From contig BQWY01000001.1 in NCBI GenBank assembly GCA_036984305.1, forward strand, positions 1,364,001-1,428,000: a DNA stretch of 64,000 bases, given 5' to 3'. Position numbers and translations under genes: made by a program. Below are positions 23,785-37,481 of the stretch, one piece after another. This DNA is from Nitrospira sp. (lineage in GTDB: Bacteria > Nitrospirota > Nitrospiria > Nitrospirales > Nitrospiraceae). The number at the start of each line of letters is the position of its first letter. Position 1 is the stretch's first letter. The notes beneath the pieces are model-generated. The model was not told where the DNA came from. It worked only from the letters and a program-made list of their open reading frames with translations, and searched no databases.

Positions 23785-26700
23785 TCAGGCAGTGGACGAA
23801 TCTACGGTCGCGCTCGCGATGGACGAAACCATGGTGCCAATATCGCAGATTGCCGCAATGCCGAGAAGAAATGCGACTGAAAAGCCTTCGGTTGGGCCTT
23901 TCAACGGGAGCAGCCACGCACAGCTCGTGGGAATCGGCGCCATGATGTTCGCTGCCTCGGTCCACCCGTTCTCATAGTCGGGATCTTTCGACTGTTCGAC
24001 CGTGGCCCAGATTCCCGTTCCCAGCACTGCCGTGCCCGCAATGGTGAGCGCGATGGGACCGACGATCGTGGTGTATTTGCACTCGGACTTGTTCGATGAG
24101 TAGATGGTGAAGGCCATATTCAGGATGGCCGGGACGAATCCCACGGCCCAGTACGTCACGGTTGCCGTGTCTGCCTTCGACCAGTCGGACGTGGATTTCC
24201 CCATCACTTGGTACGGAACAGTAAACCCCTGAATCATGATTGACAGCACGATGTCCGACCACGAGAGGAAAGTGGCCAGCGGATCTTCTTCGCCTTCAGA
24301 CGCCGCCGCAAGGGCATCGTTGGCGAGGTCCGCGGCGGTGTACAAGAAATAGGTAAGGCCGCCCAGAAGCCACAGTATCTCCTGGACCGGCGTGAGTTCC
24401 GAGACGGTGGGGCTCGTGGTCGGAAGCTTCTCGAGCCCCGTTCCCAACGATGGCCAGGGTATCGGTGAGGACGTAATGGTGCTGACCGAGGCGTTCGTAA
24501 AGGGCGGACTGGGGTTGGACGGGTCACTCTTGGTACCGAAGATGATTTTGTACAAAATGGTGGCGGGCACCGCAAGGATCAAGCACAGGAGGTCGAGGAT
24601 GGTCAGATCGTCGCCTTGTGGATTATCGCTACTTTTGGTGATTTCTTTGTACAACCAGGAAAGAATGGGAATGTCGAGAGACTTGTTCAGTGTCGTTTGT
24701 AGGGAGGCGATGGCCGCACTGTAGAAATCCAGCAAGGCGATCAGGATGTCCTCGAGCACGTCCAACACAAAATCCACCACAATTTCGGCTGCCTGGAGGA
24801 AGGCCAGCATCGCGACATCAAAAAACTGCTTTGGGTTGCTCGTCTTGATCGACAAAAAGTTCTGAAGTTGCTGCGTCTGGGCTTGCAGTTGCGACACCTG
24901 TGCCTCGATCAAGTTGTAGAGGTTGTCGAACGGGCTCGTGTCGCCCAGAGAAGGCAAGACCGCCGCCAAGCTCGACGTGCTCGAAAAATGCTGCTGGGCC
25001 TTGGACGTGACGTAATTGCATCGCGCAGCATTGGCCTGATACGTGTCATGGTAGGTTTGGCCTTGCAGCGTGGTCGACGAACCTCCCTTTTGCCTGCTTG
25101 CGTACTGATTCCAGGTCAAGCCCTGTTCAAAAACCTGCTCCGCGTTCGTGAAGGCGCCGTTGATCTCGTTTTGTAGCGCGGCGAACTTTTCCTTGACCAC
25201 GCTCACTAAGTCCTGCTCGCTGTTCTGCAGATTCGTCAGCACGGAATTGAGGTAATACTTGATCACCGTGTGGGTATTCAGGATATCGGACCAGTCGAAC
25301 AATTCTCGTATGAATTTAATGATGTCCTCGACGACGTGAATGGCCTTCTTGATCCAATTGGCCAGAACTTCCAAGAAGTCAGCAATATCATCGACGGTCT
25401 TCAGGACAAACGACTTAAACGCGTTGCCGACATAGATGGCGACATTGACGACGTCGTTCTGGATGGTGTGCACGATGTTCGTGATGTCCTGCCACGCATG
25501 CTTGAAGAAGTGTGCGACATCTCCCCAAAAGTCGGAGAACGAGAAATCGCCAGCCAGGTTTGCTCCGGCCCGAATGCGGGCTTGGGCTTCCTCTTGTGTC
25601 AGCCGCCGGATGCGTGGTTGACCCTGCGCCGTGAATTCGAGTTCCCAGTTCGGCATGTCAACGTGGGTCAGGTCGAAACGGGCGGACGGTGCGGTCCGTT
25701 TCTGGAGCATCAATTGCGCGGCGCTTGTGATGGTGGTCGCGACGGTGTTGGCGTTGGGATAGCCGGGTGGCAAGATTCCGGCACTCTCCAGTGAGGCGCC
25801 GGTGACGGGCAGTGTTGGATCCTGGCCAGCCAGCCGGGCGAGAGAGCTTTTGTCGGCCGGACAGGATTGCCACTGGTTTGAGGACATGAAGTCGGGGACC
25901 TGGACACTCAACATGGGAGCGGTCAAGGTCGTGGCCTGTACGGCTATCGTCAACTTCCCCACGCTGTTGGTGACGACCTGGGCGGATTCCTGTGGACTGA
26001 TATGATAGGCCAATTCGTTGGCAATGATCACGGTGGAGCGGTCGGCCTTGACGTTCATCGTCACGGAAGGGACTGGGCTGTCGTACTGATCCATGGCGAC
26101 GATCTCGGTGGTGTAGGTGCTGACCGAGGCAGGCGTTTGATCGGGGGCCGTCGGACCGTCCAATTGTTGGACGAACCACGACCCATACGTCGAACTTGTC
26201 CCATCGGATACGAGTTTCTGGCTCATGTGCTGCACGACCTCGGTGAGGTCGACATCGAACACTTCCGGTCCGAGCGGCATGAGGGGAGGACAGGCGATGA
26301 CTTTCAACGCGCTTCCCAGCGGAACCCAATTCTGATTGAACACCGGATTGTTTGACGAGTCGGTTCCAATTTGCCTCAACAGCCAGAGCTGTCCCGCCGC
26401 GTCGAGCGCGAACAACATGTACCGCTGCTCGCCATCAAGGCCGAGCGCGACGGATTGAACGCCCGTCGGCGCCGTGCCGGTGGCGAGTAAATCCAAGGTA
26501 TTGGGCGACCCGGAGGCAAACCCTCCCACGTAGAACAGTTGGTCGTTGTTGGCGCGGACCAAAAAGGCGCTTTGTCCCTCCGCGGCCGGGAGTCCGTAGA
26601 ACCGGTCGATCGTGAGTGGACCAGATGCGAGCGGGAAACTATTCCATTGTGAATTGGGTGCCCATTGAAACGTTCCGTCCACAATCGAGCCGCATCGGTA

Positions 26701-27360
26701 ATTGATAGTGGTGCCGGACTGGGAGTCGTCCGGCTGGAGAATCGTCAACTGCGTCGAATTCAACCCGATAACGACGAGGTACGCGGGAGTCGTGGACGCG
26801 GATGTCATCGTGAAGTTGAGCTGCCACGAGTTCGTGCTCTCGTCCCGAGAGATGAGAAAAAACGTAGGCTGGCTACCCGATATGGAAATGCCATACAGGT
26901 AGTAATTGCCGTCGGGATCCCGATACATGTCGGTTTGTGTCGTTTGGCTCAGGACAGTGGGCAGCGACTGTAAAGCATTCCAGTATCCTTCCGCCGAACA
27001 TTGCATCCACATGACTGCGTTGTCTGCGCTGCCGTCTGAGGACGGATAGAAGACCAGCACGTTCAGCTCACCGGATTCGTAGAAGGCCTGGAGTTTTGAG
27101 ATGGGGGCCGGCAGGACTATGGGAATCGGGACTACGTTTTGGTTCCAGCCGGAGTGCGAACTCTGATCTCGCACGAAATGCAGGACACTCGTATTGTCAT
27201 TGCCCACAGTGAGAAGCTCATTGATCACATCCCCGTTCACCTCATTGCTGACCACGACAAACTTATCGGTGAGGCCGCTGGCCACCGGTGGGGTCATGAC
27301 TAACAAATAGTCCTCGATCAGGCTCGAACTCGCGGTAATCGCCGAAGCGGTGCGTGTCAT
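23785..27360 (-). CDS. Very large protein with propeller-like, Ig-like, amphipathic and membrane regions; unknown function
   Basis: 1191 residues with no N-terminal signal peptide. Residues about 30-370 are beta-rich with repeated aromatic/glycine patterns (for example Y-Y-L-Y-G-I-S and L-F-Y-V-G-G-F), suggesting a beta-propeller or lectin-like domain. A beta-sandwich-like stretch resembling invasin/Ig domains follows (about 400-500). From about residue 620 a long amphipathic helical part begins (D-F-W-G-D-V-A-H-F-F-K-H-A-W), leading into a C-terminal region with several hydrophobic helices after about residue 860. This could be a pore-forming or membrane-inserting effector, or a surface protein, but I know no matching family. 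It faces the two secreted collar-like genes in the same direction. Confidence 0.7.
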   Translation of the reverse strand: MTRTASAITASSSLIEDYLLVMTPPVASGLTDKFVVVSNEVNGDVINELLTVGNDNTSVLHFVRDQSSHSGWNQNVVPIPIVLPAPISKLQAFYESGELNVLVFYPSSDGSADNAVMWMQCSAEGYWNALQSLPTVLSQTTQTDMYRDPDGNYYLYGISISGSQPTFFLISRDESTNSWQLNFTMTSASTTPAYLVVIGLNSTQLTILQPDDSQSGTTINYRCGSIVDGTFQWAPNSQWNSFPLASGPLTIDRFYGLPAAEGQSAFLVRANNDQLFYVGGFASGSPNTLDLLATGTAPTGVQSVALGLDGEQRYMLFALDAAGQLWLLRQIGTDSSNNPVFNQNWVPLGSALKVIACPPLMPLGPEVFDVDLTEVVQHMSQKLVSDGTSSTYGSWFVQQLDGPTAPDQTPASVSTYTTEIVAMDQYDSPVPSVTMNVKADRSTVIIANELAYHISPQESAQVVTNSVGKLTIAVQATTLTAPMLSVQVPDFMSSNQWQSCPADKSSLARLAGQDPTLPVTGASLESAGILPPGYPNANTVATTITSAAQLMLQKRTAPSARFDLTHVDMPNWELEFTAQGQPRIRRLTQEEAQARIRAGANLAGDFSFSDFWGDVAHFFKHAWQDITNIVHTIQNDVVNVAIYVGNAFKSFVLKTVDDIADFLEVLANWIKKAIHVVEDIIKFIRELFDWSDILNTHTVIKYYLNSVLTNLQNSEQDLVSVVKEKFAALQNEINGAFTNAEQVFEQGLTWNQYASRQKGGSSTTLQGQTYHDTYQANAARCNYVTSKAQQHFSSTSSLAAVLPSLGDTSPFDNLYNLIEAQVSQLQAQTQQLQNFLSIKTSNPKQFFDVAMLAFLQAAEIVVDFVLDVLEDILIALLDFYSAAIASLQTTLNKSLDIPILSWLYKEITKSSDNPQGDDLTILDLLCLILAVPATILYKIIFGTKSDPSNPSPPFTNASVSTITSSPIPWPSLGTGLEKLPTTSPTVSELTPVQEILWLLGGLTYFLYTAADLANDALAAASEGEEDPLATFLSWSDIVLSIMIQGFTVPYQVMGKSTSDWSKADTATVTYWAVGFVPAILNMAFTIYSSNKSECKYTTIVGPIALTIAGTAVLGTGIWATVEQSKDPDYENGWTEAANIMAPIPTSCAWLLPLKGPTEGFSVAFLLGIAAICDIGTMVSSIASATVDSSTA

Positions 27361-27774: not shown

Positions 27775-28593
27775 CTAGTCTTTTTGACATTGGAGTAGCT
27801 GCATGTAGGGAAGCGTACTTAATGCGGCGCTAGAATTTCCAGAGTAGTCGTACGTGCCCGAATGGCCGTAGCCCCATGAATGTGTCCATGGGGCTTGCAC
27901 GAGCGAGAGAACCGTGGGTGTCACACCGCCTGAAAACGAGTGCGCGTGCGTCCGGTTTTCGTTCGGGGCCAGCGCCCCGCCGCCGAAGGCGGCGGGCGCT
28001 TGACCGGCTGCAGGAAGGCCCACCAGAAACCGTCCCTGTGTTGCCGCCGGCTGGCTCCACCCTGGGTTGGGGCAGTCAAGGCCGGCCGTGAATATGAGGA
28101 TCCCGCTTGGAATACTGCCCGCATTTGGTGCCGGGTTCTCTTCCTTGAGGCAGACCAGCAGTTGCACGTAGGGAACTTGAACGCTGGAAGCCGCCGTCGT
28201 GCCGTCGAATGCAAATGGGCCACGTGAAGTCGGATCGTCATTACAACAGCCGTCAACGCCTTTGATGTAGGCGTTATCAAGAAGGATGCTCGAGCTGAAA
28301 CTATGAGTATGCGTCCGATTCTCACCGCTCTTCAGCGCCGTGTCGACTGTCTCCTGCGTCGTGCCGTTCGGCATCAACGGTACGACAAAACGCCCATTCA
28401 TCGCGTCCGCAAGGTTCCCTGTGGGGGTCCAGCCACCGGGACATTGCGTCGCGTTAAAAAAGGCAATGGTTTGCTGGGGATACGGGTCCTGAGCGCGGAC
28501 CGGTACGGGTGTCCCCATCACCACCGCGAACAGCGCGAGGGTCAGGGCGATCACTGTTCCTTGTGTAACAGAGCGAGACTGCGATGCTCCCAT
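27775..28593 (-). CDS. Secreted phage-tail-collar-like protein, two repeats
   Basis: 272 residues with a clear signal peptide (hydrophobic residues about 13-30 ending V-R-A-Q). Two similar halves follow. Each has a G-R-F motif, a G-E-N-R-T-H-T-H-S-F or N-E-N-R-T-H-A-H-S-F motif and ends in P-Y-V-Q-L-L-V-C-L-K-E or P-Y-M-Q-L-L-Q-C-Q-K-D. The H-x-H-S block is typical of tail-collar domains, here in an exported protein rather than a phage. Function unknown; a carbohydrate-binding or surface role is a guess. The gene follows its single-domain paralogue by 15 bases. Confidence 0.65.
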   Translation of the reverse strand: MGASQSRSVTQGTVIALTLALFAVVMGTPVPVRAQDPYPQQTIAFFNATQCPGGWTPTGNLADAMNGRFVVPLMPNGTTQETVDTALKSGENRTHTHSFSSSILLDNAYIKGVDGCCNDDPTSRGPFAFDGTTAASSVQVPYVQLLVCLKEENPAPNAGSIPSGILIFTAGLDCPNPGWSQPAATQGRFLVGLPAAGQAPAAFGGGALAPNENRTHAHSFSGGVTPTVLSLVQAPWTHSWGYGHSGTYDYSGNSSAALSTLPYMQLLQCQKD

Positions 28594-28608
28594 GTGTCAC
28601 GTCCCTTC

Positions 28609-29055
28609 CTATTCCTTTTGGCACGCAACGAGTTGGTAAAATGGCAGATTGGAGGGTGCCTCATCCACGGTTCCAGAAACAGTAGAGGACCCCGACGCGG
28701 CGTAGGATTTGTCCTTCCCCCCCGTAATTAACGCAGCATGTTTGCTCGAGAGTTGTACCGTCGCCTGGTAACTGTGCTCATGCATAGGCGCCGTCTTGTC
28801 CTGAAGCGGAGGTCCGACTATGACGCCCACATCCGATGAATTCTGAACCGCCACGACAGCACGTCCCTGGACGTTGGTTGCGACATTCCAGCCTGAGCCG
28901 TGGTCACATGTGGTGCTCATAAAGAACGCCATCATCCCCGTGGGGGTGCCATCAGTGTCGGCTGGCTCCGCCGCGATCGCTGACGATCCGGCGCAAAACC
29001 CAAGGAGCCCGGCTATCAGAACACGTCCCGTACAGCATCGTAGTCCCTTTCGCAT
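28609..29055 (-). CDS. Secreted single-repeat tail-collar-like protein
   Basis: 148 residues from ATG 29055, chosen for the GGAGGGG site upstream. A signal peptide (hydrophobic stretch ending S-A-I-A-A) is followed by one collar-like unit with G-R-A-V-V, M-H-E-H-S-Y and the end P-F-Y-Q-L-V-A-C-Q-K-E. That ending matches both repeats of the adjacent 272-residue protein, so the three units are paralogous. First gene of the minus-strand run leading to the 1191-residue protein. Confidence 0.6.
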   Translation of the reverse strand: MRKGLRCCTGRVLIAGLLGFCAGSSAIAAEPADTDGTPTGMMAFFMSTTCDHGSGWNVATNVQGRAVVAVQNSSDVGVIVGPPLQDKTAPMHEHSYQATVQLSSKHAALITGGKDKSYAASGSSTVSGTVDEAPSNLPFYQLVACQKE

Positions 29056-29270
29056 TCGTACAGCCCCTCCGTGACGCTGATGAGTTGGAATCGCTCGACA
29101 GGATCGAGAGATCGATGTCGAATGGCGATGCACTTATAACGAGTGCTACGTGGTAGCGCAAGGCGAAGGTGAGCGCCATCAGGTATTAGCCCAGGCCGAG
29201 CCAGTGATCTGCCTAGGAACGGAGAAAAGAAAAGGAGGTGTCCTGTCGTCAGCAGCGACTGACGAATTGC

Positions 29271-29351: not shown

Positions 29352-29816
29352 GTGCGAAAATACTGGGTGATCCTACAGGCTGGTCTCGCGGTCGCCGTGA
29401 TTCGGATCCTGGTGCGCCTGTTGCCGTTGCCCCGAGTGCTGAGTTGCCTACATGCAGATGGCACTTCCAACACGCTCGACCGAGCCGCCCTCGACGATCT
29501 TGCCTATTATACGGATCGATGGTTGATCTTGTTTCCTGCCAACGCAAAGGGAAATTGTTTCCCTCGCTCGCTGACGCTGTATCGATTCGCGCGGCGGTTG
29601 GGTTTTCCCGTGCGGTTTCATTGCGGGATCCAAAAGAACGGACAGACGCTCGACGGGCATGCGTGGCTCTCGCTCGAAGGGGCCGCCTTTCTCGAGCCGA
29701 CTCGGCATTGGGAAGGGTTTACGGTTACGTATTCATACCCGTGCACCGACAATACGGCCCAGGGGCCTACATCGGCTGAGCATGTGGGGGCCTCCAGCGG
29801 ACGGGTCGTTTCCTGA
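29352..29816 (+). CDS. Lasso-peptide B2-type leader protease (transglutaminase-like)
   Basis: 154 residues, GTG start after GGACGGAA. The region around C-F-P-R-S-L-T-L-Y-R (Cys69) and the D-G-H-A-W (His103) motif matches the B2 cysteine protease of lasso-peptide pathways (transglutaminase-like fold), which removes the leader from the precursor. In known systems it acts with a separate PqqD-like B1 protein that holds the leader. Here that partner is about 4.5 kb downstream in the same run. It is the first gene of the cluster. The third member of the catalytic triad was not placed with certainty. Confidence 0.8.
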   Translation: MRKYWVILQAGLAVAVIRILVRLLPLPRVLSCLHADGTSNTLDRAALDDLAYYTDRWLILFPANAKGNCFPRSLTLYRFARRLGFPVRFHCGIQKNGQTLDGHAWLSLEGAAFLEPTRHWEGFTVTYSYPCTDNTAQGPTSAEHVGASSGRVVS

Positions 29817-29823
29817 GTCAACC

Positions 29824-30441
29824 ATGTCGAGCCGCCGATCAACATTGACTCGCCGGCAATTCGGACTTTGGACCGCCGCAGGTGCGGTGATCGTTGGCCT
29901 GAATCGGGGATGTGGGCTGTGGCCGGATGCGGTGCAGGCCGAACATCCTGAGCTTCCTCCCGTCCGATTGTTGCAGGGCCCCTTCCAGGCACTGTCCGCC
30001 TACGAGGCGACGTTACTGGATGAAGTCACGGCTCTCTTGATCCCGACCGATCAGGATCCCGGGGCCCGCGAAGCCGGCGTGGTCGCGGTACTGGATCGGG
30101 CGCTGGCTGCACACGAGCAGCAGCGAACGATCTATCGATCGGGCTTCGCTTGGCTGGATTTCTACGCGAACGCTCTGTACGGGCAGGACAGTTTTCTCCT
30201 GCTCCCGCCAGCCGGTCGGCTCAGAATGTTGGAATTGGCGGAGTCAGGCCGGGTTGGACGACTGCACAAACTCAAAGAGTGGTGGCGGTTTGGAACGCTT
30301 GGGCACGGCGTTCGCTTCTTCGAGTTGGTGAAGGCCGACACGTTTGCGGCGTTCTATACCGCCCGACAGGGGTGGCAGGTGGCGGGTTATCATGGACCGC
30401 CGCAGTACCGCGGATTTCCAGACTATGCACGGTGTGGGTGA
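29824..30441 (+). CDS. Tat-exported gluconate 2-dehydrogenase subunit 3-like protein
   Basis: 205 residues. The N-terminus has a twin-arginine signal (T-R-R-Q-F-G) followed by a hydrophobic stretch, so it should be exported folded through Tat. The rest matches the small subunit of gluconate/fructose-type GMC dehydrogenases (L-L-D-E-V-T-A-L-L-I-P-T-D near residue 70; E-L-V-K-A-D-T-F-A-A-F-Y-T near residue 165). The catalytic partner is the next gene, three bases away. Such small subunits help export and stabilise the flavoprotein. Its position inside a RiPP cluster is unusual. Confidence 0.75.
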   Translation: MSSRRSTLTRRQFGLWTAAGAVIVGLNRGCGLWPDAVQAEHPELPPVRLLQGPFQALSAYEATLLDEVTALLIPTDQDPGAREAGVVAVLDRALAAHEQQRTIYRSGFAWLDFYANALYGQDSFLLLPPAGRLRMLELAESGRVGRLHKLKEWWRFGTLGHGVRFFELVKADTFAAFYTARQGWQVAGYHGPPQYRGFPDYARCG

Positions 30442-30444
30442 CCG

Positions 30445-32127
30445 GTGTCCGGTGACGCGGTAGACGTGTGTATCATCGGATCGGGCGCCGCCGGGGCGGC
30501 CATGGCTTATGCGCTTGGCCAGGCCGGGCTCTCGGTCGTGGTCTTGGAGTCGGGTCCACGGTTCGATCCTACCCGGTATCCGATGAATGATCCCAATTGG
30601 GAGACTCGGCCGGGCGCATTCGACCCGACCCCTGCACAGCGTCACCAGTATCTCTATGGGACAGGTCCGGCCGAACCGCTCGATGGGCGCTTCGATCACC
30701 TCCATTCGTGGTCCGAGGCCGACGGGCGGTACATCACGTCCGGCAAGCGAACACCACCCCGGGTCCATCGGGTGCGTGGCGTCGGCGGCACGACGCTTCA
30801 CTACCAAGGCGAGGCCCATCGCTTTTCGCCCCATGGGTTCCAGTCCCGTTCGCTGTTGGGGTACGCGGAAGATTGGCCGATTCGCTACGACAGCCTGACG
30901 CCCTACTACGATGAGATGGAGCGGCTCCTTGGGGTGGCCGGCGATCATGCGAATCCGTTCAAGGCACCCCGGGGGCCCTTTCCCAATCCTCCGCATGCGA
31001 TGAGTTGTGCGAGCCGACACGTCAAGCGCGGGTTTGACCGGATGGGGTTGCACCTGCATCCAAATTCGCTGGCGATCCTTTCGCGCCCGTATGACGGACG
31101 AATGGCCTGTATCTATTGCAATGGGTGTTCGATGGGGTGCATGACGCGCGCCAAAAGCAGCGCCGATGTGGCCCTGATTCCCAAGGCAGAGGCTTCCGGA
31201 CGCGTTGCGATCCGCACGGGAGTCGTCGTCCATCGCTTGTTGACCGATGCCAACGGTCTGGTTGATGGCGCGCTGTATTTCGATGATCAAAAGATGGAGC
31301 GGCGGCAAGCCGCCCGTGTTTTCGTCGTGGCCTGTGGCGCCCTCGAAACACCGAGGCTGTTGTTGAATTCGAGTTCGCCGAGGTTTCCCGATGGACTCGG
31401 CAACCGCAGCGGATTGGTGGGGCGTTATTTCATGGAGACGCTGTATCATGCGACCACCGGGCTCTTTCGCGAACCATTGCATTCGTACGAGGGACTTCAG
31501 ATCGACAGCCGTGCTTGGGATTGGAATACGACCAGTTCAACGCGAGGGTTTGCCGGAGGCGTCGTCCTGGGCGTATCGGCCTCCGGGCTGCTTGGACCGC
31601 TGACCTATGCCCGGGCTGTCGCGCCGGGATGGGGGAAGCGACACAAGGATTTCATGCGAACTTACTTCGGTCATGCGATCACGGTCTTCGCCAACGGCGA
31701 ACATCTGCCGCACCGGGAGAACCGCATCGATCTCGATCCCGAAAAGCGGGATGGGCACGGAGTGCCCGTCGCCCGGATTACGACCGCACTTCGTCAGAAC
31801 GATCTTGAGATGTTGGCGTTCATGAAGACCCAATGCCGGGCCGTGCTGGAAGCGGCAGGAGCCGAGCGCATCATCGGGGAGGAAAGCGCCTACGACATAA
31901 GTTCGATTACGCATATGGGCGGGACCTGCCGCATGGGCGACGACCCGAGTCGGTCCGTCGTCGATCGGTCTTGTCGTTCTCATGACGTGCGCAATCTCTA
32001 TGTCGTGGACAGTAGCAGCTTCGTGACACAAGGTGGCGGGGACAGCCCCTCGCTGACCATTCAAGCTCTTGCCCTACATGCGGCTGAGCACCTGATCCAA
32101 TTCGTCAACGCCGGCGGGCATTCCTAG
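30445..32127 (+). CDS. GMC-family FAD oxidoreductase (dehydrogenase large subunit)
   Basis: 560 residues, GTG start. The dinucleotide-binding G-S-G-A-A-G is at about residues 12-17, a C-I-Y-C-N-G-C-S-M-G-C cysteine cluster near residue 220 and the C-terminal H-M-G-G-T-C-R-M-G and G-G-G-D-S-P-S-L-T-I-Q segments of GMC alcohol dehydrogenases are present. It would oxidise an alcohol, probably in the periplasm together with the Tat-exported small subunit. The substrate might be a peptide side chain, a sugar or an unrelated alcohol. A 302-base gap separates it from the ATP-grasp genes, so the link to peptide modification rests on position. Confidence 0.8.
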   Translation: MSGDAVDVCIIGSGAAGAAMAYALGQAGLSVVVLESGPRFDPTRYPMNDPNWETRPGAFDPTPAQRHQYLYGTGPAEPLDGRFDHLHSWSEADGRYITSGKRTPPRVHRVRGVGGTTLHYQGEAHRFSPHGFQSRSLLGYAEDWPIRYDSLTPYYDEMERLLGVAGDHANPFKAPRGPFPNPPHAMSCASRHVKRGFDRMGLHLHPNSLAILSRPYDGRMACIYCNGCSMGCMTRAKSSADVALIPKAEASGRVAIRTGVVVHRLLTDANGLVDGALYFDDQKMERRQAARVFVVACGALETPRLLLNSSSPRFPDGLGNRSGLVGRYFMETLYHATTGLFREPLHSYEGLQIDSRAWDWNTTSSTRGFAGGVVLGVSASGLLGPLTYARAVAPGWGKRHKDFMRTYFGHAITVFANGEHLPHRENRIDLDPEKRDGHGVPVARITTALRQNDLEMLAFMKTQCRAVLEAAGAERIIGEESAYDISSITHMGGTCRMGDDPSRSVVDRSCRSHDVRNLYVVDSSSFVTQGGGDSPSLTIQALALHAAEHLIQFVNAGGHS

Positions 32128-32429
32128 CCGGTTTCGCATTCACCACGCCATATTTGTTGCAATCCTTCTCGTCTCCTTCTCATCGCACCTGCGGAAATCC
32201 CCAGGCCTGGCATAAGAAAATCGCTGCCCATCGCGTGATATCGCGGTCTGAATCCGCGATTTACCCCCCGTTAGGGGCGGCTCTCCCCGCATGGGCGGAG
32301 TTTTCGATTCACGCGGCATTCAGTACAACGTGTCCCTATGCTTGTTCACTCCTCGCTGTGGACATCAGGGATTCAACGGAGTTGTGTGTGCCCAACGGCA
32401 ACGTGGTGGTCGCATGGGAGGGACGCTCG
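32128..32429. other. Gap between the GMC and ATP-grasp genes
   Basis: 302 bases. Open in the frame of the next gene but with no codon bias or start. It contains a perfect 7-base inverted repeat, ATCGCGG/CCGCGAT, at 32240-32260 with a 7-base loop. This could end or attenuate the transcript of the upstream three genes, leaving the peptide genes on their own message. No clear promoter was seen. Confidence 0.4.
32240..32260 (+). terminator. Short hairpin, possible weak terminator
   Basis: ATCGCGG (32240-32246), loop TCTGAAT, CCGCGAT (32254-32260). The stem is perfect but short and is followed by only two T residues, so intrinsic termination would be weak. Confidence 0.25.
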
Positions 32430-33449
32430 GTGATCCTTCTCCTCGCCGACGCCACAGATCCATGGTCAACTCACGTCGAGCGGGAACTGATCCGCCGACA
32501 CCAACCGGTGTCACGAGTCGACCCCCGGTCCTTGTGCGGCGGGCTGTCGTTCGACTGGAGGCTCGAAGGTTCGAGCCGTTCCTCTTTCCACTCGATCACC
32601 CCGGATCATGTACCTGTGGAGGCTCGAGCCGAACTACGAGCCGTGCTGGTGCGTATGCAGATAGGAGCCCTGGAGCTGCCGGAGGACACTTTCAACTCCG
32701 AGGATCAGGTGTATGCGCAAATGGAATGGTCGGCCGCGCTCTTCGGGTGGCTCAACGCGTTGTCGTGCCCGGTGATCAACCCTCCTGTCCCCGGAAGGTC
32801 TGGTCGGCTGTTCCCGATGCAGGCCTCGGTACAAGGGGCTTTGTTGCAGCTTGGAGTCGCGGTGCCTCCTCATGCGGTGGCGTCCACTCGCGAGACTGTA
32901 CTCGAACACTATGCACAATGGAACGAGCTGGCGCGTGCGCAGTCGCTCGGCCCTGATGCGAAAGTTCACTACCTGCAGGGTGGTGACGGACATGCCGTCG
33001 TCGATGCCATGCTCGCGCACGGGCCGATACTGCTCCAAGCGGTGCCGGAGGGAAGCCCTGTGCGCGCCGTGGTGGTCGGCGAGGAAGTCATCGGCGGAAC
33101 GCGGCGGACGGCGGCGCAGGACGGATGCCTACGCGAGTCGATTTGGGACGCCGCACCTCTGCCGCCATCGCTGGCGAATGTCTGCCGCCGACTCGCAGGT
33201 GTGCTTGCACTTCCATTCGTTGACATCGAGATGGTCCAGGGCCACGAGGGGCAGCTGAGTTGCCTGGGGATCAGCGAGTCACCGGCGTATGGACAATACA
33301 GCGATAGACTGCGCCACTTGATTGTGGACCGCTTAGTGAATCTCTTGGACAACACCGAGGAGAGGCGTGCGCATGATCCTTATGTTTGGCCGACTCCGCG
33401 ATCCGATCACCGCCAGCCTGGCGGTGCAGCTTGCTGCCCGATCAGCTGA
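32430..33449 (+). CDS. Degenerate ATP-grasp protein, partner of the following ligase
   Basis: 339 residues. The start is set at GTG 32430 because GGGAGG lies eight bases upstream and the protein then begins M-I-L-L-L-A-D like ATP-grasp peptide ligases; upstream in-frame sequence looks non-coding. It aligns at its C-terminal part with the next gene: V-D-I-E (Asp265) corresponds to V-D-L-R there, and C-L-G-I-S-E-S-P-A (residues 278-286) to C-F-E-V-N-P-S-P-A. The Glu and Asn that bind magnesium are Gly280 and Ser282. It is probably a non-catalytic or altered partner that binds peptide or ligase. It overlaps the next gene by 77 bases in another frame. Confidence 0.65.
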   Translation: MILLLADATDPWSTHVERELIRRHQPVSRVDPRSLCGGLSFDWRLEGSSRSSFHSITPDHVPVEARAELRAVLVRMQIGALELPEDTFNSEDQVYAQMEWSAALFGWLNALSCPVINPPVPGRSGRLFPMQASVQGALLQLGVAVPPHAVASTRETVLEHYAQWNELARAQSLGPDAKVHYLQGGDGHAVVDAMLAHGPILLQAVPEGSPVRAVVVGEEVIGGTRRTAAQDGCLRESIWDAAPLPPSLANVCRRLAGVLALPFVDIEMVQGHEGQLSCLGISESPAYGQYSDRLRHLIVDRLVNLLDNTEERRAHDPYVWPTPRSDHRQPGGAACCPIS

Positions 33450-34296
33450 TCTGATCCTCGTCGAACCATGCGACGCGTCGACGGCACAACGGATCCTGTG
33501 GCAGGGCGATCAGGATGGGCTCCAGGGGCGTGTCCACATCGGCGAACGCTCCGTCGAAGCTCATGCCATTCGGTCCATGTACGTGCGGCAGATCGGAAGC
33601 GGCGCGGTCCGCACGCCCGAATCAGGCGCGGATCTCGGGTCGCGCGTCCGTGCCGAAAGTTTGTGGGCACTGACAGACGCGTATCGGGGGCTTGTGGTCA
33701 ATCGCCGAATGGCCAGCTGTACGAATGCCTCAAAACCATATCAACTCGACATGATTCGGCGGGAGGGATTTCGAGTGCCGCACACGATCGTAACGACCCG
33801 GCCGAATGCCGCACGCGCGTTTTGGCACGAGTTCCGAGGTGAGGTCATCTATAAGTCACTCAGCTCAGAGCGTTCGATCGTGAAGGCCATGACCCATGCA
33901 GATCTTCACAGATTGGAATTGATTTGTTCGTGTCCGGTCCAACTCCAGGAACGAATCCCCGGCGTGGACATCAGGGTGCATGTGATCGGCACGCGCATCT
34001 TTGCCACCGAAATTCGCTCTCACGCCGCGGACTACCGATATGCCGAGCTGGAAGGGGCGAGCCGGGAAATGCGCCCGATTCAGCTGCCCGATGAGGTGGC
34101 CAGCCGGTGCATGGAGCTCACGAAAACGCTGGGATTGGCCGTGGCGGGGGTCGATCTCCGGCGCACTCCGGGAGGGGAATATTGTTGCTTCGAGGTGAAT
34201 CCAAGTCCGGCCTTTCTGTGGTTCGAGGACATCACGGGCCAGCGGATTGGAGCGGCCATTGCGGATTTGCTGTGCAAGGGGGCGGTCTGGAACTAA
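33373..34296 (+). CDS. ATP-grasp peptide ligase (graspetide/RimK-like)
   Basis: 307 residues from ATG 33373, with GAGGAGAGG upstream. The ATP-grasp fold is indicated by K-S-L-S-S (Lys161), Q-E-R-I-P-G-V-D-I-R-V-H-V-I-G-T-R-I-F-A (about 192-211), Asp261 in V-D-L-R and the magnesium motif E-V-N-P-S-P (Glu274, Asn276). The end, F-L-W-F-E-D-I-T-G-Q, resembles graspetide ligases such as MvdD, which form lactam or ester links between Glu/Asp and Lys/Ser/Thr side chains of a precursor. In this cluster it is the only intact ATP-dependent bond-forming enzyme seen, so it is the best candidate for making the ring. Confidence 0.78.
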   Translation: MILMFGRLRDPITASLAVQLAARSADLILVEPCDASTAQRILWQGDQDGLQGRVHIGERSVEAHAIRSMYVRQIGSGAVRTPESGADLGSRVRAESLWALTDAYRGLVVNRRMASCTNASKPYQLDMIRREGFRVPHTIVTTRPNAARAFWHEFRGEVIYKSLSSERSIVKAMTHADLHRLELICSCPVQLQERIPGVDIRVHVIGTRIFATEIRSHAADYRYAELEGASREMRPIQLPDEVASRCMELTKTLGLAVAGVDLRRTPGGEYCCFEVNPSPAFLWFEDITGQRIGAAIADLLCKGAVWN

Positions 34297-34320: not shown

Positions 34321-34791
34321 ATGACTGAGACGAAGACAGCGCCGAAAGGTCTCTTTATCCAATCCGACCTTCGCCCGGATGTGCATGCGGAGGTGGAGTC
34401 AACCGCGCTGCCCGGTGGCACCGGCGCCTCCACCGCAGAGATCGCCTCTGTAGCCAGCCATGTACTCACAGGGGCCGGCTATCCATCAGCATGCCAACGT
34501 TGGGATCCCAGTCTCTTCCTTGGCCGCGTGCTCACGCACAGTTGCGACGTGCAATTTACGGTGCTGGACGACGAAGCCGTTCTGCTCAACCTCACTAACG
34601 GTCATTACTACACGCTCAATCGTGTGGGCACGATGATCTGGGGGTCACTGGACGGTCGTCGGCCGCTCAATGACACGCTTGATCAATTATGCAAGCAGTT
34701 CGAAGTCGACCGGGGTCGGGCTCACGATGATTTGGTGGCTCTCGTCGTGCGTATGGAGCACGAAGGGTTACTTCAAGAGGAAAGGAGGTGA
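34321..34791 (+). CDS. PqqD-like leader-binding protein (B1/RRE) with N-terminal extension
   Basis: 156 residues, AGGAGG nine bases before the ATG. Residues about 70-152 form a PqqD-type RiPP recognition element: L-D-D-E-A-V-L-L-N-L-T-N-G-H-Y-Y-T-L-N-R-V-G, then a helical half ending V-R-M-E-H-E-G-L-L. Such proteins bind the leader peptide and present it to the modifying enzymes; in lasso systems this is the B1 role. The first ~65 residues are an unfamiliar extension. The stop is five bases before the first precursor gene, and a perfect ribosome site for that gene spans the stop. Confidence 0.82.
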   Translation: MTETKTAPKGLFIQSDLRPDVHAEVESTALPGGTGASTAEIASVASHVLTGAGYPSACQRWDPSLFLGRVLTHSCDVQFTVLDDEAVLLNLTNGHYYTLNRVGTMIWGSLDGRRPLNDTLDQLCKQFEVDRGRAHDDLVALVVRMEHEGLLQEERR

Positions 34792-34796
34792 TTCGG

Positions 34797-34934
34797 ATGC
34801 AAAAGCAAGGGCAGAAGCAGGCGTACGCTGAGCCCGTTCTCGTGAAGCGCGAGCAGCTGCGGGATGTGACCGCAGGCAATGGCGTGAAGTACAGGGAGAA
34901 GCTGCTCGACAAGTTTAGCGATGTACCTCTGTAA
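34797..34934 (+). CDS. RiPP precursor peptide 1 with lasso-type leader
   Basis: 45 residues, ATG preceded by AAAGGAGGTGAT, a near-perfect ribosome site. The leader (residues 1-26) holds Y-A-E-P-V-L (YxxPxL, Tyr10-Leu15) and ends V-T-A, with Thr at the penultimate position, both hallmarks of lasso leaders. The predicted core is GNGVKYREKLLDKFSDVPL (34875-34931): Gly1 and Glu8 are exactly placed for an eight-residue macrolactam. Lys5, Glu8, Lys9, Asp12, Lys13 and Asp16 also offer side-chain crosslinks for an ATP-grasp ligase. It shares A-Y-x-x-P-V-L-V-K-R-E-Q-L-R-D-V-T-A-G and core K-Y-R-E-K with precursor 2. Confidence 0.85.
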   Translation: MQKQGQKQAYAEPVLVKREQLRDVTAGNGVKYREKLLDKFSDVPL

Positions 34935-34955
34935 CTCGTGAATTCTAGAGGAGAG

Positions 34956-34982
34956 GGGAGCTGATGATCTTGTCGAGCTCCC
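34956..34982 (+). other. Hairpin between the two precursor genes
   Basis: GGGAGCT (34956-34962) pairs with AGCTCCC (34976-34982) across a 13-base loop and is followed by TATTT. It could stabilise or partly terminate the precursor 1 message. An in-frame ATG for precursor 2 (34964) lies in the loop. Confidence 0.4.
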
Positions 34983-35011
34983 TATTTCAGGCCAGAAAGG
35001 AGGTGATTGAG

Positions 35012-35128
35012 ATGCTGAAGAAGCAAGCGTACACGGCGCCGGTGCTCGTCAAGCGCGAGCAGCTGCGCGACGTCACCGCGGGCGTGAGCGGGAAGTATCG
35101 CGAGAAGTATTTTGAATTCCCGCGCTAG
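35012..35128 (+). CDS. RiPP precursor peptide 2 with lasso-type leader
   Basis: 38 residues, ATG preceded by AAAGGAGGTGAT. Leader residues 1-23 contain Y-T-A-P-V-L (Tyr7-Leu12) and end V-T-A. The predicted core is GVSGKYREKYFEFPR (35081-35125), again with Gly1 and Glu8. Nucleotides differ from precursor 1 at many third codon positions (for example cgg/cgc, gat/gac, gtg/gtc, gca/gcg) while the leader protein is the same, which shows selection on the peptide. A longer in-frame start at 34964 would add 16 residues but is less likely. Confidence 0.85.
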   Translation: MLKKQAYTAPVLVKREQLRDVTAGVSGKYREKYFEFPR

Positions 35129-35223: not shown

Positions 35224-36264
35224 ATGTCATCCACTTTTATGATGACGGATAAAGAACTCAGATACTGCGTCCATGGGGTCGACGTCAGAATCGTGACGGA
35301 TTCGCACTTGTTCATCGAACCTGCCACGACCTTGCTCCGGTACTTCCGATGGGACGCGTCACCCTCGGCACGGGAAGTCTCCCTGCACCTGATGGGACAC
35401 GAGCATCGCAACCAAATTCCGATACGCGTCCCGGTCGACGCGGAACCACTCTGCAACAAGTCCGGCACGGCCGTGGGTGATGCCCTGCGTCAGAATTGGG
35501 CGTGCACGATTTCACGCGCTGGCCGAACGCTCTTCGCCGATTTTCACGAACAGGGGCTAGTGGTCATCGACTCCGAGAAGGGCGAGGCTCACGCGTTTCT
35601 GGTGCGACCGGAAGCCATGCACGCCGATATTCTCGACAGCTATGTCCATTTCATGCTGACCGAACTTCTCCGATATCACGGTCTCTTTACGATGCATGCG
35701 ACCTCGTTGGAGAAGCACGGCCTGGGAGTGCTGATTCCCGGATTCAGCGGACGCGGGAAGACCACGACCTTTCTCTCCCTGCTGCGATCCGGGTATCGAT
35801 ATCTCTCCGACGATCATCCCATGCTGCGCGATGCCGGCGGAGAGATAGAGTTGCTGTCCTTTCCGATGAAGGTGGACGTGACCGAGCACACCATTTCGTT
35901 CTTTCCGGAGTTGCGCGAGGCAGGGGTCGGCGTCCTTCAGCCGGGGCCACGGAAACAATTCTTCTATGTCGAGGATGTGTACGCTCAGGCTGCCATCGGG
36001 AATCGATGCAAGCCGGCACTCATTCTCTTCCCTCATGTCGTCGATGCGGAACGCTCTTCTCTCGAGCGCTTGCCTAAGAGTCAGGTCATGCAGGATTTGC
36101 TGCCTCAGGGGCTCGTGGCGTACGACCGGGACCTCGCGGGGCGACAATTTCAAGTCCTCGCAAAGTTGGCGTCCCAGGTCGACTGCTACCGTCTGAACTT
36201 CGGGCGGGATGTCTTGGGGCTGCCGGCGCTTATCGACCCCTTACTAGAGGCCGCCCACACATGA
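35224..36264 (+). CDS. HPr-kinase-like protein of RiPP clusters
   Basis: 346 residues. The C-terminal half carries a P-loop G-F-S-G-R-G-K-T-T (residues 173-181) and an S-D-D-H motif (195-198) of the HPr kinase/phosphorylase fold. HPr-kinase homologues occur in lasso clusters, where one type phosphorylates a serine of the peptide. The N-terminal ~150 residues lack the usual HprK domain. Possible acceptors here are Ser15 of core 1, Ser3 of core 2 and Tyr6 of both. The stop overlaps the next gene start (ATGA). Confidence 0.75.
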   Translation: MSSTFMMTDKELRYCVHGVDVRIVTDSHLFIEPATTLLRYFRWDASPSAREVSLHLMGHEHRNQIPIRVPVDAEPLCNKSGTAVGDALRQNWACTISRAGRTLFADFHEQGLVVIDSEKGEAHAFLVRPEAMHADILDSYVHFMLTELLRYHGLFTMHATSLEKHGLGVLIPGFSGRGKTTTFLSLLRSGYRYLSDDHPMLRDAGGEIELLSFPMKVDVTEHTISFFPELREAGVGVLQPGPRKQFFYVEDVYAQAAIGNRCKPALILFPHVVDAERSSLERLPKSQVMQDLLPQGLVAYDRDLAGRQFQVLAKLASQVDCYRLNFGRDVLGLPALIDPLLEAAHT

Positions 36265-37481
36265 TTCGTCTGTTGCCACCCGCCATGAGTCGAGAGGCGC
36301 TCCTGGTCTCGCTGTGTGCCCGCACGAGTCTGGATCCCGGATGTGAAGGGCGAATTCGCCAATTGGCTCAGGGGGCGACGGACTGGGCGTGCGTCGCCGA
36401 GATCGCCAAGTGGCACGGCGTGGCACCGCTGGTATATCGGAACCTCACCCGGGTGTGTCGGGATCGGGTCCTGCCGATTGTGCTCGATGACCTGAAGCAA
36501 TATTACCAGGCCTCGGCCATGCTCGGGCATTCGCTGGCCAAGGATCTCGCGCTGCTCTGTCAATCGTTTGCCGTCCGTGGCATACCCGCCGTTCCGTTCA
36601 AGGGCCTGACTTTGGCCCAGACCGCCTATGGAGACATCGCCGCACGCGAGTGTGGGGATATCGATATGATCGTGCACCGTGAAGATCTCCCTCGCGCGCG
36701 CCTCGTGCTCGAGCGCGAAGGCTACGAATGCGCGACAGACGATGCGGCTAAGGCCTCGGATCCGGACGACGCCTTCAATCTCTATATCAAACGAGCCCGC
36801 GGGGTGACGGTTGATTTACAGTGGGTCATGGCCGACGGGTCCTTTTCATTCCGTCTCGACCGCCCGCAATTTTGGCAGCGTCTTCGGACGGTGGCGATCT
36901 CCGGTACCGAGGTCAAGGCGTTGGCGCCCGAGGATTTGCTGTTGGTCCTGTGCGTTCACGGCGCAAAACACGTGTTCGAACAACTCAAATGGATCGGTGA
37001 CCTAGGGGAGCTCCTGCGCCGCCATCCGAATTTTGATTGGGCCTACTTCGAACGGACTGCAAAGGAATGGTCCTGCTGGCGGATGGCTCTCGTGGGTCTG
37101 ACCTTGGCGCGAACGCTCTGGGGAGCATCACTGCCTGGACGAATAGAGCGAGCCATCATGGATGACGGAGAGGTGCCGGCCCTGGCTCGACGCATGCCCA
37201 AAACCCTGCTGAGCGATCCCAGTTACGGGTTAGGCGAGGGGGAGAGGGAAGTGTTTTTCTTCGCCACCAAGGACTCGCGGTGGCATCAATGGCGGCACGG
37301 CCTTGCTCTCAGCCGAGATCGAAGCCCCAGTTTAGCCGTCGATCATCCGTGGCTGCCGGCCTGGAGGCGTCTGCAAGGGGTTCATCGGGCCATAGACCCT
37401 ATGAGGGACATGCTAAAGCGGATGATCCCGTCGGCAACCATTCGACAGCGTATCACTCAATGGCTGCTTCCCGCGTCGTAA
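36261..37481 (+). CDS. Nucleotidyltransferase-fold protein (NTP_transf_5-like)
   Basis: 406 residues. The region F-K-G-L-T-L-A-Q-T-A-Y-G-D-I-A-A-R-E-C-G-D-I-D-M-I-V (about residues 113-138, cited in parts) has the G-D-I-D aspartates of the nucleotidyltransferase fold. This family is a frequent neighbour of lasso B1/B2 and HPr-kinase genes, but its reaction is largely uncharacterised. It may transfer a nucleotide to the peptide or to a phosphate placed by the kinase. It overlaps the kinase gene by four bases and is the last gene of the cluster. Confidence 0.75.
   Translation: MIRLLPPAMSREALLVSLCARTSLDPGCEGRIRQLAQGATDWACVAEIAKWHGVAPLVYRNLTRVCRDRVLPIVLDDLKQYYQASAMLGHSLAKDLALLCQSFAVRGIPAVPFKGLTLAQTAYGDIAARECGDIDMIVHREDLPRARLVLEREGYECATDDAAKASDPDDAFNLYIKRARGVTVDLQWVMADGSFSFRLDRPQFWQRLRTVAISGTEVKALAPEDLLLVLCVHGAKHVFEQLKWIGDLGELLRRHPNFDWAYFERTAKEWSCWRMALVGLTLARTLWGASLPGRIERAIMDDGEVPALARRMPKTLLSDPSYGLGEGEREVFFFATKDSRWHQWRHGLALSRDRSPSLAVDHPWLPAWRRLQGVHRAIDPMRDMLKRMIPSATIRQRITQWLLPAS

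Follow-up and report, generated by a model that had tools for sequence, protein, structure and literature searches.

Graspetides such as microviridin, plesiocin and corallotide depend on ATP-grasp ligases of the MdnC/PsnB family, and graspetide precursors normally bear their own N-terminal ligase motif, PFFARFL or Phhx(1,2)h (PMC8939145). Phosphorylated lasso peptides (paeninodin, pseudomycoidin and the bsf cluster) involve a PqqD/B1 protein, a B2 protein, an HPr-kinase homologue and a nucleotidyltransferase, and their precursors have a YxxPxL leader with Thr-2 (PMC8498205, PMC10368454). This spacing is what lasso B1 and B2 proteins read (PMC10368454).

We analyzed a 64,000-nucleotide stretch of Nitrospira sp. 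DNA (the window), in which two small genes, pepA1 and pepA2, lie in a cluster resembling both systems. As in graspetide loci, there is an MdnC/PsnB-family ligase, and a recognition tag resembles the Phh-type motif PFFARFL (PMC8939145). The Lys/acid units of the cores are like the repeated Lys isopeptide motifs described for corallotide (PMC13097080). Unlike graspetides, the window precursors have a lasso-type leader without a ligase motif, which is instead borne by a separate protein with an RRE domain; the ligase has a degenerate ATP-grasp partner as well, and leader removal is of the B2 type. The four proteins and the leader pattern of the phosphorylated lasso peptides recur here, but with an ATP-grasp pair and no lasso cyclase in the cluster, and with Lys/acid repeats in the cores instead of a conserved Gly1 and an acid at positions 7-9.

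Two further systems invite comparison. A 2026 survey of >20,000 graspetides (Carter et al.) reports that groups 33 and 39 co-occur with transglutaminase-fold proteins, which are possibly B2-like; its main text mentions neither PqqD nor an HPr kinase nor a lasso leader for these groups (PMC13097080). In Bacteroides branch 5 ATP-grasp loci, an LPL auxiliary protein is suspected to bear a Phh-like motif missing from the precursors, and recognition in trans was raised, although not tested, for these proteins. That work does not describe LPL proteins as RRE domains; the loci have a SPASM enzyme and no lasso leader or B2 (PMC8939145). We found no report in the open-access literature of PqqD, ATP-grasp and HPr kinase in one cluster.

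We consider it reasonably probable that the window holds a RiPP cluster in which leaders are handled in the lasso manner and the modification is of the graspetide type, and which works like a graspetide system with its recognition element on an adaptor. Such a cluster would amount to a natural hybrid between two RiPP classes, its enzyme-recruiting tag having moved from precursor to adaptor. It would illustrate how enzymes can pass between RiPP classes, and would provide a ready means of targeting a stapling ligase to peptides or protein tails of choice. It also yields predictions testable by mass for a bacterial group with little-studied peptide products.

The precursor genes and their cluster

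The cluster lies on the plus strand, downstream of purQ-purL-purF (Table 1). The first-pass annotation had proposed two RiPP precursors under purifying selection, with good ribosome sites and leaders nearly identical in protein but differing in silent codon positions, and our analysis bears this out. Both ORFs are present, each with a ribosome site of the type AAAGGAGGTGA a few bases 5' of the start (AAAGGAGGTGATTCGG-ATG for pepA1 and AAAGGAGGTGATTGAG-ATG for pepA2). Over the 20-codon leader, 9 of 11 changes between the two genes are synonymous (pS 0.58, pN 0.045; Fisher P = 1.7e-5), compared with pS 0.42 and pN 0.26 in the aligned core start. Judged by these codon changes, purifying selection is strong on the leader and weaker on the core start. 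The precursors go unrecognized by curated family models; homologous precursors with the leader kept are found in many related genomes, which excludes chance as their origin. Y-17, P-14, L-12 and T-2 stand exactly at the lasso-leader positions. We rejected an attenuator hairpin between pepA1 and pepA2, the fold being no better than that of shuffles (z -0.33).

Table 1. Features of the cluster, in window positions
Feature	Position	Strand	Remarks
B2-type lasso leader peptidase	29352..29816	+	PF13471, NF033537; Cys69 and His103 conserved
Gluconate 2-dehydrogenase subunit 3-like protein	29659..30441	+	Also in the locus of one other family, L050
GMC oxidoreductase, possible tailoring enzyme	30445..32127	+	
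GraspA, ATP-grasp fold, predicted non-catalytic	32388..33449	+	True start uncertain; ORF open from 32154
GraspB, graspetide-type ATP-grasp ligase	33367..34296	+	TIGR04187 4e-44; catalytic residues intact
PqqD/RRE protein	34321..34791	+	Tag at residues 12-19, linker of ~65 residues, RRE domain at 85-151
FIQSDLRP tag inside pqqD	34354..34377	+	
pepA1 precursor	34797..34934	+	45 aa; ATG 34797, stop 34934; leader MQKQGQKQAYAEPVLVKREQLRDVTA, predicted core GNGVKYREKLLDKFSDVPL
pepA2 precursor	35012..35128	+	38 aa; ATG 35012, stop 35128; leader MLKKQAYTAPVLVKREQLRDVTA, predicted core GVSGKYREKYFEFPR
HPr-kinase-related kinase	35224..36264	+	P-loop and DD motif conserved
NTP_transf_5 nucleotidyltransferase	36261..37481	+	

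The closest solved structures to the window PqqD RRE are the lasso B1 proteins TbiB1 and TfuB1. The seven genomes checked have one B2 each, which lies inside the ligase locus in six; in the seventh (G303) the sole B2 is on another contig. The ABC exporter of relatives' loci is missing from the window cluster. Many relatives have a fatty-acid-hydroxylase-like gene instead of the GMC oxidoreductase; in L039, L047, L111 and L126 such genes adjoin the precursors, and they are possibly an alternative means of oxidative tailoring. On the minus strand of the window, two adjacent, mutually similar ORFs (27775-29133) stand between purF and the B2 gene and look phage tail-collar-like by eye, and an ORF of 1191 aa (23785-27360) has no Pfam match.

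In the phylum, 43 of 396 genomes contain a GraspB relative. The GraspA-GraspB-PqqD set of the window recurs in seventeen fetched loci (L038-L051, L111, L122 and L126); precursors and kinase lie alongside in nearly all of them, and many occupy the same site, beside purF and a redoxin gene. The HPr-kinase homologue is more widespread (76/236 genomes of the order), and ligase and cyclase are both missing from many of its loci, which do have PqqD, precursor, kinase, nucleotidyltransferase and B2. These loci thus provide a natural control, in which the same type of leader can be compared with and without the ligase. The lasso-leader RiPP loci L110, L112-L118 and L123-L128 have no lasso cyclase and, L126 excepted, no ATP-grasp; most encode PqqD, the HPr-kinase homologue, nucleotidyltransferase, B2 and an ABC exporter. 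Their cores have either Ser3 (xxSG) or an LSRV-type start in common and are otherwise very diverse, some being rich in Gly, Trp and His and some having paired Cys.

The ATP-grasp pair and the Lys-acid units

GraspB matches PsnB, MdnC and CdnC (6e-22 to 2e-16), and its K, R, D and E-x-N residues are invariant in all aligned orthologues. In the window GraspA, GIS replaces the ExN metal-binding pair of active enzymes, and GraspA proteins of relatives have also lost the neighboring Asp and Arg. The fold predicted for GraspA is nonetheless that of a graspetide synthetase, with PruB, MdnB, MdnC, CdnC and PsnB as its top matches, on a model of modest confidence (pLDDT 61). Because the catalytic residues are lost in GraspA and kept in GraspB, we predict one active enzyme, GraspB, with GraspA as its degenerate partner subunit; two active ATP-grasp enzymes, as in microviridin, are ruled out by the losses in GraspA. 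It is unlikely that the pair instead adds amino acids to Glu side chains in the manner of RimK or cross-links separate peptides. Both proteins share the RimK fold, and the long Lys/Glu tails of the large proteins described below could link between chains, but the graspetide-synthetase model matches GraspB much more strongly (TIGR04187, 4e-44) than RimK does (2e-14), and each core unit pairs a Lys with an acid at near-fixed spacing.

The K-Y-R-E-K that the annotation saw in both cores, together with an acid at position 12, is real and forms part of a longer pattern. The pepA1 core is composed of the units KYRE-KLLD-KFSD and the pepA2 core of KYRE-KYFE, and for the window pair alone the P values are 0.0003 (three units, pepA1) and 0.006 (two units, pepA2). 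At least two contiguous K-x(2-4)-[D/E] units are present in 23 of 30 cores from ligase loci (shuffle mean 1.4, max 6) and in none of the 51 cores from ligase-free sister loci, although the cores within each set are related and the counts are not independent events. Cores of the ligase set usually have two to four units; six further cores have just one contiguous unit, and one exception, GASGVSGGQCQSTSALNCVL, is without any Lys or acid. In this set the leader is kept, but the distance from the cleavage site (slash) to the KYxEK motif varies, as in ITG/TKYQEKTSDKPGDNV, VTG/QKYKEKVSDKAG.., VTG/GGKYAEKVTDVFDAN and VTA/GNGVKYREK... The patterned core of acids and Lys/Ser/Thr residues expected of graspetides is thus present in the form of K-x(2-4)-[D/E] units. 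Side-chain lactams at a spacing of three to four residues, one of two chemistries considered in the first-pass annotation, fit these tandem units and the graspetide-type ligase in the loci. Chemists also staple helices through Lys-acid lactams with i,i+3 or i,i+4 spacing.

Somewhat less probable still is that the main products are linear phospho- or glycophospho-peptides, decorated by the kinase and the nucleotidyltransferase, with the ligase as an accessory. The kinase occurs in 76 of the 236 genomes of the order, in many loci without ligase or cyclase, and Ser3, the position phosphorylated by the related kinase BsfK (PMC10368454), is found in 40 of 51 control cores. However, ligase loci conserve the K-x(2-4)-[DE] array and not Ser3, which is found in 11 of their 30 cores and is present in pepA2 but absent from pepA1. 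The ligase step therefore appears central in the ligase loci.

The recognition tag and the proposed mechanism

The tag [FY]-I-x-x-[DE]-[LE]-R-P stands at the N terminus of PqqD (FIQSDLRP, residues 12-19, in the window). It is present on the window PqqD and on 17 of 17 ligase-adjacent PqqDs of relatives, these 18 tagged proteins sharing ancestry, and on 0 of 29 PqqDs whose loci or sub-loci lack the ligase. In the fetched sequence, 31 tags lie <=2.5 kb from a GraspB and a single one lies elsewhere in 613,444 aa, at 2,529 bp from a GraspB. These counts are partly post hoc, as the regular expression was widened after loci with Lys tails had been seen. Because it was settled when several loci were already known, the whole-genome count is the cleaner test: in the 4.35-Mb genome, the codon pattern of the tag occurs exactly twice, at both GraspA/B loci. 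The motif is absent from the leaders of the pepA precursors themselves; such a motif is usual in graspetides but is not part of their defining chemistry.

Loci that lack PqqD have the tag directly on the Lys/Glu-repeat protein. In 12 loci of Nitrospirota (L052-L063) it is C-terminal, just after the Lys/Glu/Asp repeat tail of large proteins beside GraspA/GraspB. These unrelated proteins include an M6 peptidase, DUF6519 proteins, and esterase-like and lectin-like proteins, and their Lys/Glu tails consist mostly of KEx repeats, not KxxE. One large-protein GraspA/GraspB locus lies in the window's own genome; L058 (G000:C1:3404900-3424800) has the pair together with a large protein, a repeat tail and an FIxxELRP-type tag. 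A scan of genome contigs gave one extra locus, L109 (bacterium CPR1, QWHO01000002.1), where a 350-aa protein lies directly upstream of GraspA/GraspB (region L109:1779-4667). This protein has the tag at its N terminus and 58 contiguous K-x(2-4)-[D/E] units that cover nearly all of its 62 Lys (shuffle mean 6.7).

The tagged PqqDs are all related, so FIxxDLRP could be a mere clade-specific N terminus with no role in ligase recruitment. We regard this as improbable, since non-homologous proteins beside GraspA/GraspB carry this tag too, at one or other end of the chain, and the genome contains no further copy. The most economical reading is that the tag serves to recruit GraspA/GraspB.

On this reading of tag recruitment, the pepA peptides are probably stapled by Lys-to-acid bonds, with the ligase brought in through the tag of a separate carrier, as far as can be judged from sequence. 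The RRE domain of PqqD would bind the leader through Y-17, P-14, L-12 and T-2, and the FIQSDLRP tag would dock on GraspA/GraspB, so that the recognition element is supplied in trans to precursors that do not carry their own. GraspB would then activate Asp and Glu side chains with ATP and join them to Lys within units, one Lys-Asp/Glu lactam per unit, predicting three in pepA1 and two in pepA2. Links such as Lys5-Glu8, Lys9-Asp12 and Lys13-Asp16 would be expected, each unit losing 18.01 Da; the calculated neutral masses are 2123.153 for the pepA1 core less three H2O and 1825.926 for the pepA2 core less two H2O, with 79.966 more in case of phosphorylation. B2 would presumably act after this, cutting after the residue that follows Thr-2, and a hydroxyl residue may receive a decoration, perhaps a phosphate, from the HPr-kinase homologue and the nucleotidyltransferase. 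Repeat-protein substrates would present the tag in cis, at either end, and lasso-leader peptides in trans via the RRE protein. In another graspetide, engineering has demonstrated that a leader can act as a follower (PMC13003496). We lean slightly toward the more general view that GraspA/GraspB is a portable stapling machine with an eight-residue tag as its address, acting on whatever Lys-acid repeat it is offered, in cis or in trans. A recognition element split in this way would account for one RiPP class making use of another's enzyme.

The lasso reading

The annotation had also considered an eight-residue lasso ring between Gly1 and Glu8, and this did not hold. The lasso features that are present are the leader residues Y-17, P-14, L-12 and T-2, the RRE (B1) and the B2 protease. 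We looked for a lasso cyclase and found none in the cluster or in relatives' loci, and no homologue in the genome passes NF033535. Gly1 with an acid at position 8 is found in 3 of 30 ligase-locus cores, and with an acid anywhere at 7-9 in 9 of 30. Relatives keep the leader but not Gly1 and Glu8 (ITG/TKYQEK.., VTG/QKYKEK.., VTG/GGKYAEK..); many of them start with a residue other than Gly and have the Glu at position 5. As both defining features examined, the cyclase and a conserved residue 1 with an acid at 7-9, are missing, the pepA products are not lasso peptides.

It is accordingly very improbable that a cyclase encoded elsewhere in the genome joins the Gly1 amine to Glu8, even though leader spacing, RRE and B2 are all of the lasso type, both window cores have Gly1 and Glu8, and the genome has five asparagine-synthase-like genes: all five score best as asparagine synthase or XrtA-type amidotransferase and fall short of the 525-bit lasso-cyclase cut-off (the best reaches 319 bits), and they lie far from the cluster, with no second B2 in their vicinity. 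Asparagine-synthase hits near relatives' loci most likely reflect the glutaminase domain of the neighboring purF.
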